28,821 nt of DNA, from positions 1 to 28,821 of the IMG/VR virus record IMGVR_UViG_3300030328_001207; one strand, given 5' to 3'. The DNA comes from a virus. A program made the translations under genes and the position numbers. Position 1 is the first letter of the stretch. Every line of letters begins with the position of its first letter. A model generated the notes under the pieces. That model worked only from the letters and a program-made list of their open reading frames with translations. It made no database searches and was not told where the DNA came from. Below, piece by piece: positions 5,621 to 7,705 of the stretch.

Positions 5621-6286
5621 ATGAGGGAAACCGAGACTAGGAATATCCTGGTTATCGGTGACCTTCATGAACCTTTCTGTCTTGATGGTTACTTAGATTT
5701 CTGTTTAGAACAATACGAAACTTACAATTGTAATCAAGTAATCTTCATTGGCGATATTTTAGATAACCACGCATTTTCTTATCATGAACCAGACCCTGAT
5801 GGAATGTCGGCAGGATATGAGCTGGAAAAAACCATAGAAAAGGTTTCATATTGGTATAAGGCTTTTGAATATGCAGATGTCTGTATTGGAAACCATGATA
5901 GGATGGCTTCAAGAAAAAGTATGACAGGTGGCATTCCATCTGCTTGGATAAAATCCTACAATGAAGTGTTAAGCACTCCAAATTGGAATTGGGTTGAATC
6001 AATAACTTATGATGGTGTTCTTTACGAACATGGAGAAGGAGGTCAAGCACAGACCAAAGCAAAAAACAACCTGATGTCTAGTGTTTGTGGTCATACTCAT
6101 ACTGAAGCATATTGCAAATGGTTCGTTGGAAAAAAGTTTAGAGTCTTCGGACTGCAAGTTGGATGCGGTGTAGATTCCACAACTTATGCAGCTGCGTATG
6201 CTAAAAATTTTAAGAAACAAGCGATAGGATGCGCAGTAATTTTAAATAATGGCACGCTTCCTATTAATCTTTTAATGCCTTTATAG
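5621..6286 (+). CDS. Calcineurin-like metallophosphoesterase
   Basis: A 221-residue protein when started at ATG 5621. It shows the ordered metal-binding motifs of the family: GDLH at 13-16, GDILD at 44-48, GNHD at 90-93, a His in YEHGEG (137) and GHTH at 157-160. Two metal ions would hydrolyse a phosphodiester or phosphomonoester; the substrate is unknown. The frame stays open upstream to a TTG at 5555, and the extra residues (RLKPHEIVALQKM) look like real protein, so an earlier non-ATG start overlapping the holin-like gene is possible. Its place after the lysis-like genes does not define its role. Confidence 0.85.
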   Translation: MRETETRNILVIGDLHEPFCLDGYLDFCLEQYETYNCNQVIFIGDILDNHAFSYHEPDPDGMSAGYELEKTIEKVSYWYKAFEYADVCIGNHDRMASRKSMTGGIPSAWIKSYNEVLSTPNWNWVESITYDGVLYEHGEGGQAQTKAKNNLMSSVCGHTHTEAYCKWFVGKKFRVFGLQVGCGVDSTTYAAAYAKNFKKQAIGCAVILNNGTLPINLLMPL

Positions 6287-6508: not shown

Positions 6509-6539
6509 TTGTGTCAATTAAAAAAAGTTTGTACATTTG
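6509..6539 (+). promoter_or_regulatory. Early promoter, Bacteroidota type (TTG / TAnnTTTG)
   Basis: TACATTTG (6532-6539) matches the -7 box TAnnTTTG exactly. TTG at 6509-6511 lies 20 bases upstream, an acceptable -33 spacing. Transcription should begin near 6544-6546 and give a leader of about 35 bases before ATG 6579. It would drive the ribozyme-separated early operon. Confidence 0.75.
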
Positions 6540-6555
6540 CATCATAATTAAAACG

Positions 6556-6581
6556 AAATTAATTTAAATAAAACTAAAATG
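6556..6581 (+). repeat. 26-nt translation leader, copy 1
   Basis: This A/T-only stretch (one C, one G) ends in AAAACTAAAATG with the start codon of the 6579 gene. It is identical to 6828-6853 and 7174-7199. No Shine-Dalgarno is present, which fits A-rich initiation regions of flavobacteria. Confidence 0.9.
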
Positions 6582-6776
6582 AAAAATCAAACTAAAACTT
6601 TTTATAGAGTAGAATCAACAGAAAATATTTTTTCACCTCCATCTTTTAACACTTTAGAAGAAGCCCAACAGTATATAAAAGATGAGCCAAAAACGGGCAA
6701 TAAAGAATATTACACTTGGTATGCTACAACATTATATATAAATAAAATTACACAAGTTATTGAAAAAATAGATTAA
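6579..6776 (+). CDS. Unknown early protein 1, followed by hammerhead ribozyme 1
   Basis: A 65-residue soluble protein of no family I recognise. It has an N-terminal FYRVESTENIFSPP segment, a predicted helix around residues 26-36 (TLEEAQQYIKDEP) and a Tyr/Thr-rich beta-like end. It is the first gene after the early promoter and uses the repeated leader. Its last codon GAT and stop TAA make up the 5' strand of ribozyme stem I, so the gene and ribozyme share bases. Early phage genes in this position often act against host functions, but nothing in the sequence shows that here. Confidence 0.7.
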   Translation: MKNQTKTFYRVESTENIFSPPSFNTLEEAQQYIKDEPKTGNKEYYTWYATTLYINKITQVIEKID

Positions 6777-6822
6777 CTGATGAGCCTTCAATAGGCGAAA
6801 CACCCTTCGGGGTGTCTTAATC
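6771..6822 (+). ncRNA. Hammerhead ribozyme 1 (type I)
   Basis: Stem I is GATTAA (6771-6776) with TTAATC (6817-6822). CTGATGA is at 6777-6783. Stem II is GCCT (6784-6787) with AGGC (6793-6796) around a five-base loop TCAAT. GAA (6797-6799) follows. Stem III is ACACCC (6800-6805) with GGGTGT (6810-6815) around TTCG. The cleavage triplet is GTC (6814-6816), so the RNA should break after C6816, leaving a 5'-OH and a 34-base leader for the 6851 gene. Only stem I is open, hence type I. It begins within the last codon and stop of the gene before it. Confidence 0.95.
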
Positions 6823-6827
6823 AACTA

Positions 6828-6853
6828 AAATTAATTTAAATAAAACTAAAATG
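6828..6853 (+). repeat. 26-nt translation leader, copy 2
   Basis: Identical to 6556-6581 and 7174-7199. It starts 11 bases after the predicted cleavage site of hammerhead 1, so it is kept on the downstream fragment. Confidence 0.9.
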
Positions 6854-7123
6854 AAAACAAAACTAAAATTAGAAAAGGTTAGAAAAACAAGTTCAGGAGT
6901 AGATTTTGCAGACATCATCTGCGAAATGCCTTATAAAGGTGCTTATTCTGATTCAGTAACAGTTAAATTGTCATGCACTAGTTGTGCAATTAGAATCATG
7001 TCAGACCACTTAGTTGGAGAAATGAGACACATTTGCGAAAACTTAGATACTGATAAAATAAGACAATTTGCAAAGGATATGCTAAAAGCATCTAAAACTT
7101 TAAACGAGGTCAGAAGTATATAG
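6851..7123 (+). CDS. Unknown early protein 2, between ribozymes 1 and 2
   Basis: A 90-residue soluble protein, not recognised. The N-terminal half has two beta-like segments (KLKLEKVRKTSSGVDFAD, then YSDSVTVKLSC); Cys 43, 46 or so lie close together in LSCTSCAIRIM, and the C-terminal 35 residues look helical (TDKIRQFAKDMLKASKTL). A possible metal site from the close Cys pair is only a suggestion. It uses leader copy 2 and its TAG stop provides the first base of stem I of ribozyme 2. Predicted processing on both sides would make its mRNA monocistronic. Confidence 0.7.
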   Translation: MKTKLKLEKVRKTSSGVDFADIICEMPYKGAYSDSVTVKLSCTSCAIRIMSDHLVGEMRHICENLDTDKIRQFAKDMLKASKTLNEVRSI

Positions 7124-7172
7124 GTTAACTGATGAGGTTTTAATAACCGAAACGTCGTGAGACGTCTTAACC
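7123..7172 (+). ncRNA. Hammerhead ribozyme 2 (type I)
   Basis: Stem I is GGTTAA (7123-7128) with TTAACC (7167-7172). CTGATGA is at 7129-7135. Stem II is GGTT (7136-7139) with AACC (7145-7148) around TTAAT. GAA is at 7149-7151. Stem III is ACGTC (7152-7156) with GACGT (7161-7165) around the GNRA loop GTGA. The triplet GTC (7164-7166) places cleavage after C7166. Stems I, II and III all differ from copy 1 by paired changes, which is strong support that the fold is selected. Confidence 0.95.
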
Positions 7173-7173
7173 A

Positions 7174-7199
7174 AAATTAATTTAAATAAAACTAAAATG
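7174..7199 (+). repeat. 26-nt translation leader, copy 3
   Basis: Identical to 6556-6581 and 6828-6853. It begins eight bases after the predicted cleavage site of ribozyme 2. Confidence 0.9.
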
Positions 7200-7385
7200 A
7201 AACTATTTTTAAACACAACGGACTTAAACAATCCAACAATTGAAATCACAGAAAAATGGAAAGTTTGGGTAACCAAAAACAGTAAACCTATTATTATGGA
7301 AGTTCCATTCACTAAAGTAAATGATGCTCACGAATTTATATGGGAACAACTAGGTAAACGACCATCATCAATATCTAAACTTTAA
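7197..7385 (+). CDS. Unknown early protein 3, between ribozymes 2 and 3
   Basis: A 62-residue protein, not recognised. It begins MKLFLNTTDLNNPTIEIT, continues with a Trp-containing beta-like stretch (EKWKVWVTKN) and ends with a helix including NDAHEFIWEQLGKRP. No Cys, signal or membrane segment. The final A of its TAA stop is the first base of stem I in ribozyme 3. It uses leader copy 3, so it shares its control with the two genes before it. Confidence 0.65.
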   Translation: MKLFLNTTDLNNPTIEITEKWKVWVTKNSKPIIMEVPFTKVNDAHEFIWEQLGKRPSSISKL

Positions 7386-7436
7386 TAACTCTGATGAGTC
7401 CTAAATGGACGAAACACCCTTCGGGGTGTCAGTTAT
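7385..7436 (+). ncRNA. Hammerhead ribozyme 3 (type I)
   Basis: Stem I is ATAACT (7385-7390) with AGTTAT (7431-7436). CTGATGA is at 7391-7397. Stem II is GTCC (7398-7401) with GGAC (7407-7410) around TAAAT. GAA is at 7411-7413. Stem III is ACACCC (7414-7419) with GGGTGT (7424-7429) around TTCG, the same as in copy 1. The GTC triplet (7428-7430) predicts cleavage after C7430, leaving a 23-base leader for the 7454 gene. Confidence 0.95.
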
Positions 7437-7453
7437 AATCAAAACAAACTAAA

Positions 7454-7705
7454 ATGTATTCAAATTTTAAAATGAAAGAAGCAACAAGTAAAGACGAAGC
7501 TATTATATCTATATTAGATGTAGTTGAGGAAAACCCTGTATGGCTAAACAAAGTTGACAGCAATCATTTAATTTTGCTAATGAGAGTGTCAAAACAAAAT
7601 CGTGAAAACCATATTGAGGTGTTGACAAATGAAGAAGTGATTGATTTATTTGTTAAAATAAAAGCTGCATACTATGACTATAAAGACAACGCCGTATGGA
7701 ACTAA
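7454..7705 (+). CDS. Unknown early protein 4
   Basis: An 83-residue acidic-to-neutral, mainly helical protein with no recognised family. Helices are suggested for DEAIISILDVVEENP and EEVIDLFVKIKAAYYDYKD. It is the first gene after the last ribozyme, and its start has only the last part of the repeated leader (AAACTAAAATG, 7446-7456). No ribozyme follows; instead it overlaps the next gene by ten bases, so from here on the operon switches to translational coupling. Confidence 0.65.
   Translation: MYSNFKMKEATSKDEAIISILDVVEENPVWLNKVDSNHLILLMRVSKQNRENHIEVLTNEEVIDLFVKIKAAYYDYKDNAVWN

Follow-up and report, generated by a model that had tools for sequence, protein, structure and literature searches.

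The window, i.e. the whole stretch of DNA analyzed here, is a virus record of 28,821 bases from a phage described as marine. Open reading frames g1 to g4 follow one another behind a promoter, and a type I hammerhead (HHR1, HHR2 and HHR3) occupies each of the borders g1/g2, g2/g3 and g3/g4, all on the coding strand. The features are, in order:

6509–6540, plus strand: Bacteroidota-type promoter (TTG, N20, TACATTTGC) upstream of g1, from a pattern scan
6551–6584, plus strand: leader copy 1, g1 5' UTR and first codons; repeat family D1, 91% to the reference copy
6579–6776, plus strand: g1, ORF of 65 aa, no PHROG match
6771–6822, plus strand: HHR1, predicted cut after 6816; covariance model 61.4 bits, E 6.2e-15
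6823–6856, plus strand: leader copy 2, predicted g2 5' UTR after the cut and first codons; D1 reference copy
6851–7123, plus strand: g2, ORF of 90 aa
7123–7172, plus strand: HHR2, predicted cut after 7166; covariance model 77.3 bits, E 1.8e-19
7169–7202, plus strand: leader copy 3, predicted g3 5' UTR after the cut and first codons; D1, 97% to the reference copy
7197–7385, plus strand: g3, ORF of 62 aa
7385–7436, plus strand: HHR3, predicted cut after 7430; covariance model 56.7 bits, E 1.3e-13
7454–7705, plus strand: g4, ORF of 83 aa, the first conserved-backbone gene 3' of the array

The promoter at 6509–6540 is the only recognizable one ahead of g1 to g4, and boxes of the TAnnTTTG type are present at the same place in relatives L010, L017, L018, L038 and L074. 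The 34-base leader repeat D1 is found at three sites, following the promoter, HHR1 and HHR2. A similar leader lies 3' of the promoter in L010 and L017, and before g4 in L032. Each hammerhead is set between two genes, with the stop codon of a small gene on its 5' side and the ATG of the following gene on its 3' side. The TAA stop of g1 falls within stem I of HHR1, while in HHR2 and HHR3 the outer end of stem I overlaps the TAG of g2 and the TAA of g3, respectively. An earlier note, made from the sequence of the window, had placed the hammerheads between genes, one after each of three short early genes. The ORF borders agree with this placement; the term early draws solely on the adjacent replication and recombination genes and is best read as presumed. 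No function was assigned to any of g1 to g6 by PHROGs, and a search of IMG/VR with the g2 protein as query returned no relative. No terminator-like sites were found between 6200 and 8300. Intrinsic terminators were rejected as an identity for the hairpins, since no T run follows the GC-rich stem III.

Direct reading of the sequence gives the following structures, with hairpins in parentheses and the predicted cut marked by a slash:

HHR1: GAUUAA-CUGAUGA-(GCCU UCAAU AGGC)-GAA-(ACACCC UUCG GGGUGU)-C/UUAAUC
HHR2: GGUUAA-CUGAUGA-(GGUU UUAAU AACC)-GAA-(ACGUC GUGA GACGU)-C/UUAACC
HHR3: AUAACU-CUGAUGA-(GUCC UAAAU GGAC)-GAA-(ACACCC UUCG GGGUGU)-C/AGUUAU

In all three, stem I is open and 6 bp long, stem II has 4 bp and a five-base loop, and stem III is a hairpin, closed by UUCG in HHR1 and HHR3 and by GUGA in HHR2. 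The catalytic core (CUGAUGA, GAA and the GUC triplet) is intact in each, and all pairs of the three helices form. With stems II and III closed by loops and stem I open, the order stem I, core, stem II hairpin, GAA, stem III hairpin, stem I is that of type I in all three cases. The coordinates, stem sizes, loops, cut positions and type I topology given in the earlier note match this reading exactly. HHR1 and HHR2 conform fully to the family consensus for flanks, closing pair and loop II, while the closing pair of stem I in HHR3 is A-U rather than G-C.

The earlier note had proposed a hammerhead covariance model as a check. A model trained on 62 hammerheads, all from contigs other than the window, recovered the three elements at the E-values listed above, and its next-best match in the window had an E-value of 0.36. 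A type I descriptor likewise matched HHR1, HHR2, HHR3 and nothing else in the window, as compared to 3 matches in total among 300 dinucleotide shuffles of the window (0.01 per shuffle). At its gathering thresholds, Rfam detected none of the three. With relaxed limits, RF00163 Hammerhead_1 scored HHR3 at 22.6 and HHR1 at 14.5 bits against a cut-off of 34, and RF03152 RAGATH-1-hammerhead gave 26.4, 21.0 and 19.5 bits against a cut-off of 56.3.

The predicted minimum free energy structure in isolation is the hammerhead fold for HHR1 (-15.2 kcal/mol, z -2.65) and HHR3 (-15.9 kcal/mol), whereas for HHR2 a rival fold is 1.8 kcal/mol more stable than the hammerhead fold. In 110-nt contexts, the predicted structures of HHR1 and HHR3 contain stems II and III without stem I. 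These energies were calculated with ViennaRNA, which leaves tertiary contacts out of its score.

A wider family of compact type I hammerheads

Searches of IMG/VR with two patterns and a single scan of genome contigs identified at least 194 distinct type I hammerheads in at least 96 contig clusters, of which at least 39 contain two or more. The largest array among the matches listed has 14 hammerheads on one 22-kb record. Because one pattern fixes part of stem I and the other part of stem III, and because the listed matches are a lower bound, these counts should not be taken as abundances. The contig clusters were defined by shared identical hammerheads alone, so that contigs of the same lineage are not independent. 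An overly strict pattern gave no match. Among the carriers are T7-like phages that encode an RNA polymerase of their own, phages with a GroEL gene and others.

The descriptor behind the set of at least 194 demands paired stems, and covariation was therefore judged on pattern hits only. In 90 hits to a pattern that leaves stem I free, pairs 1 to 4 of this stem form in 90, 90, 89 and 87 cases, as compared to 60, 40, 40 and 46 in the shuffle control. A gap-free alignment of 62 sequences has 99.7% of its cells paired, and two-sided changes are seen in all 10 variable pairs (223 cells, versus 64 in shuffles). The three helices are thus supported by covariation at the level of the family.

Among the matches listed, the consensus is a 6-bp stem I flanked by single A residues and a loop II of the form UNAWU. 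For 147 sequences, an A precedes stem I in 99%, the closing pair is G-C in 95% and an A follows stem I in 87%. The flanking A residues, the closing pair and the UNAWU loop lie outside what the patterns require, and their conservation suggests selection for a form stabilized by tertiary interactions, possibly through a contact between loop II and the stem I region as in extended (fast) hammerheads. Two further features of stem I, an excess of G-U pairs with the U on the 3' strand (16 versus 2) and an invariant 3' strand combined with a varying 5' strand, come from a small number of lineages and were given no weight as evidence.

The placement at stop codons is a property of the family as well. 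The core lies within -20 to +15 nt of the stop codon of the upstream ORF in 166 of the 184 members with a scored ORF, the first ATG is located at a median of 24 nt 3' of the cut, and the flanked genes are mostly small. Rfam at gathering thresholds gave no match at 20 family loci with obvious hammerheads.

Two observations concern the composition of the arrays. Arrays of mixed type exist, since the type I elements of L120, L123, L125, L138, L139 and L140 have a type III hammerhead upstream, at a distance of a few hundred bases. Eight type I hammerheads, along with many short genes, are present on a 5.8-kb contig binned to a bacterium (L244, Aliivibrio MAG contig JAAGZR010000219.1), which is probably a phage fragment.

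Predicted cleavage into single-gene mRNAs

The explanation that we favor, with a probability of about 0.82, is that HHR1, HHR2 and HHR3 belong to one transcription unit and cut its RNA at each border during transcription, leaving separate single-gene mRNAs. Transcription would begin at the promoter near 6509–6540, and each hammerhead would fold as the RNA polymerase passes and cut after 6816, 7166 and 7430, respectively. The upstream product of each cut would retain the full reading frame and its stop codon, and would end in the hairpins of stems II and III and carry a 2',3'-cyclic phosphate. The downstream product would have a 5'-OH end, followed by a short A-rich leader that resembles the one made from the promoter. 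A single promoter would in this way supply g1, g2 and g3 with mRNAs of their own, plus a message from g4 onward, through the cuts at each border.

This explanation is supported by several computed observations: the matches to the independent model, the covariation in the family, the placement at stop codons, the repeated leader and the lack of a terminator-like site in the region. The points against it are the rival fold of HHR2, the context folds without stem I for HHR1 and HHR3, and close relatives that have no hammerheads. Cleavage of the three elements and the nature of the product ends are expected from the chemistry of the class and from comparable arrays. Cutting into single-gene mRNAs, as suggested in the earlier note, appears to be the best mechanism.

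The purpose of such cuts is a separate matter, and we suggest with less confidence that they equalize or protect the mRNAs of the individual small genes. A possible alternative, to which we give somewhat less than an even chance, predicts the same cleavage step and differs only in purpose: the cuts would give the fragments different stabilities, through a 5'-OH leader on one side and a hairpin-capped 3' end on the other, and thereby set the ratio of the g1 to g4 products, rather than merely separate the genes. Stem III would provide a 3'-terminal hairpin on each predicted upstream product, the region has no other terminator-like site, and the flanked genes are mostly small, all of which is consistent with this alternative; it is, however, hard to tell from gene separation by sequence alone.

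Relatives of the phage and origin of the array

The terminase of the window and that of Nonlabens phage P12024S are 66% identical at the protein level; P12024S is a relative in culture and has a similar gene order. No hammerhead was found in the first 23.2 kb of P12024S, and no near DNA match to the window was found among named phages. We sampled 80 relatives by their portal protein (68–86% protein identity), about 30 of which span the region from the metallophosphoesterase gene to g4, g5 or the SSB gene. The covariance model found no hammerhead in 87 relatives, i.e. these 80 and seven relatives of g3 (967 kb in total; best E-value 0.28). Close relatives do without the hammerheads, which are thus not essential to this type of phage.

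Homologs of g4 are present in many relatives, often immediately 3' of the promoter. In L010, a similar promoter and leader are followed directly by g4. In L017, they are followed by a g3 homolog and then by g4, with no hammerhead in between; this homolog is 87% identical in L017 and L151, where it lies directly 3' of the promoter and leader. Because the relatives run from the promoter and leader directly to the next gene without hammerheads, the stretch from g1 through HHR3 most plausibly represents inserted gene-plus-ribozyme units, the alternative being loss in the relatives. A separate observation was made in L032, where about 300 bases between the promoter and the leader of the g4 homolog (5930–6240), the ends of which (TTGAAATAGTAGC and TACTACTATTTCAA) are complementary, resemble a structured non-coding RNA and have no convincing Rfam match.

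More distant phages carry some of the same units. A g1 homolog in L224 (42% identical) is directly followed by a type I hammerhead, and a g2 homolog in L141 (39% identical) is followed by one as well. As in the window, both units lie upstream of a recombination-type gene, in L224 also of an SSB gene. Since the homologs in these distant phages each precede a type I hammerhead, the association of the genes with ribozymes is probably old.

The recurrence of these units in L224 and L141 would also be expected if the hammerheads were linkers for cassette exchange, as would an array that, compared with its family, looks inserted between the promoter/leader and g4. Phages would then swap gene-plus-ribozyme units at gene borders, with stem I and the core as short stretches of homology and cleavage as a secondary matter. 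The identity of stem I, which is 73% within the cluster of a phage and 48% between clusters, agrees with such exchange. However, the compensatory changes in the stems and the conserved flank and loop bases point to selection on the RNA fold and not on DNA homology, and we consider this explanation unlikely.

The identity of stem II is 58% within and 41% between clusters, while stem III shows no excess. Full cross-pairing of stem I (6/6) is possible for 50% of consecutive elements, 35% of non-consecutive elements of the same phage and 12% of elements from different phages. The sharing of stem I fits duplication or exchange of units. It could in addition be taken as a genome-wide tag: the 5' end of an RNA released between successive hammerheads would pair again with stem I of its own 3' ribozyme and be ligated, to give circular or exchangeable single-gene mRNAs. 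The frequent cross-pairing of consecutive elements is in line with such circles, as is the g2 segment of the window, which can cross-pair with one G-U. The g3 segment cannot (0/6), duplication or conversion would also yield similarity within a phage, and Perreault et al. sought spliced and circular products in their systems and detected neither (PMC3088659). We therefore regard circular mRNAs as very improbable. Even less credible is that the motifs arose by chance or are decayed and inactive, as their scores below the Rfam gathering thresholds might suggest, given E-values of 1e-13 to 1e-19 with the independent model, intact cores and stems in all three, and other clear family members that likewise fall under the Rfam cut-offs.

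Comparison with known hammerhead systems

The hammerheads of the window share their topology, catalytic core and cleavage triplet with RF00163 Hammerhead_1, and differ from it in the open 6-bp stem I flanked by single A residues and in scores below the cut-off. RF03152 RAGATH-1-hammerhead, which we take to be the same form as the pseudoknot hammerhead, has the hammerhead core in common with the window. In the pseudoknot form, the structure of which is given in PMC11300833, a pseudoknot and an extra stem-loop stand in for stem II, whereas stem II of the window hammerheads is an ordinary hairpin of 4 bp with a UNAWU loop. An identity with RAGATH-1 was rejected, based on this normal stem II and a best RF03152 score of 26.4 out of the 56.3 needed.

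Hammerheads of type I, II or III were also found at early gene borders in the cultured Pelagibacter phages HTVC109P, HTVC142P, HTVC031P, HTVC168P and Eistla EXVC025P. HTVC142P, HTVC031P and Eistla have a common type I element at one junction, with homologous downstream genes; at the same junction, HTVC168P (L255) has a different GC-rich hairpin at 1764–1822. Predicted cuts fall after 720 in HTVC142P, after 2148 in HTVC031P and after 10098 in the Eistla record (position 5099 of L254). In HTVC109P (L249, MH598805), a type I hammerhead is located at 1105–1164, with a predicted cut after 1158. In this phage, gp05 is annotated to start at 1121, inside the hammerhead, and the next in-frame ATG is at 1172, for which reason the annotation of the start is probably mistaken. 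Further sequences that resemble type I hammerheads but have an imperfect stem III were missed by the descriptor and spotted by eye near 2954 in HTVC019P (L252) and near 2303 in HTVC022P (L256). The pelagiphage hammerheads resemble those of the window in lying by stop codons at early gene borders and, in the case of the type I members, in the layout of the core. They differ in the mixture of types I, II and III, in a longer stem III and in belonging to an unrelated group of phages (podoviruses). Since cultured Pelagibacter phages have such hammerheads at early borders, the function is testable, and transcript ends can be mapped in a real infection.

The literature considered, which left many subscription-journal papers outside its scope, contained no description of the compact subfamily, of its aquatic extent or of pelagiphage hammerheads. 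The uniform compact subfamily, the range of aquatic phages that carry it and the presence of hammerheads in cultured pelagiphages may thus be new. A compact form of the hammerhead set closely at the stop codon appears to be common in aquatic phages, cultured ones included, and this uniform subfamily escapes Rfam at its own cut-offs in many unrelated phages. If the favored explanation proves true, RNA catalysis, and not protein nucleases or extra promoters, would set the mRNA units of many phage operons.

The arrangement as such is already known. The earlier note knew of no described phage operon with such an organization, a view that does not hold, because Perreault et al. described clusters of gene-flanking hammerheads in 2011 (PMC3088659). 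In their study, several hammerheads flank individual prophage genes, and processing into single-gene mRNAs was proposed (PMC3088659). The systems were Clostridium scindens, Azorhizobium caulinodans and the ardA region of Agrobacterium tumefaciens; three tandem arrays cleave in vitro and one, from A. tumefaciens, in E. coli (PMC3088659). A review from 2017 noted the link to phages and considered the role of prokaryotic hammerheads open (PMC6155905). The window resembles the clusters of Perreault et al. in that three close hammerheads lie on one strand, each at a gene border, and flank single genes on what would be one transcript. Their clusters are located in prophage regions and are of types I, II or III, whereas the array of the window is of type I throughout and follows one compact consensus. 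Further differences are the overlap of the array with the stop codons and, behind two of its three ribozymes, a repeat of the leader found at the promoter.
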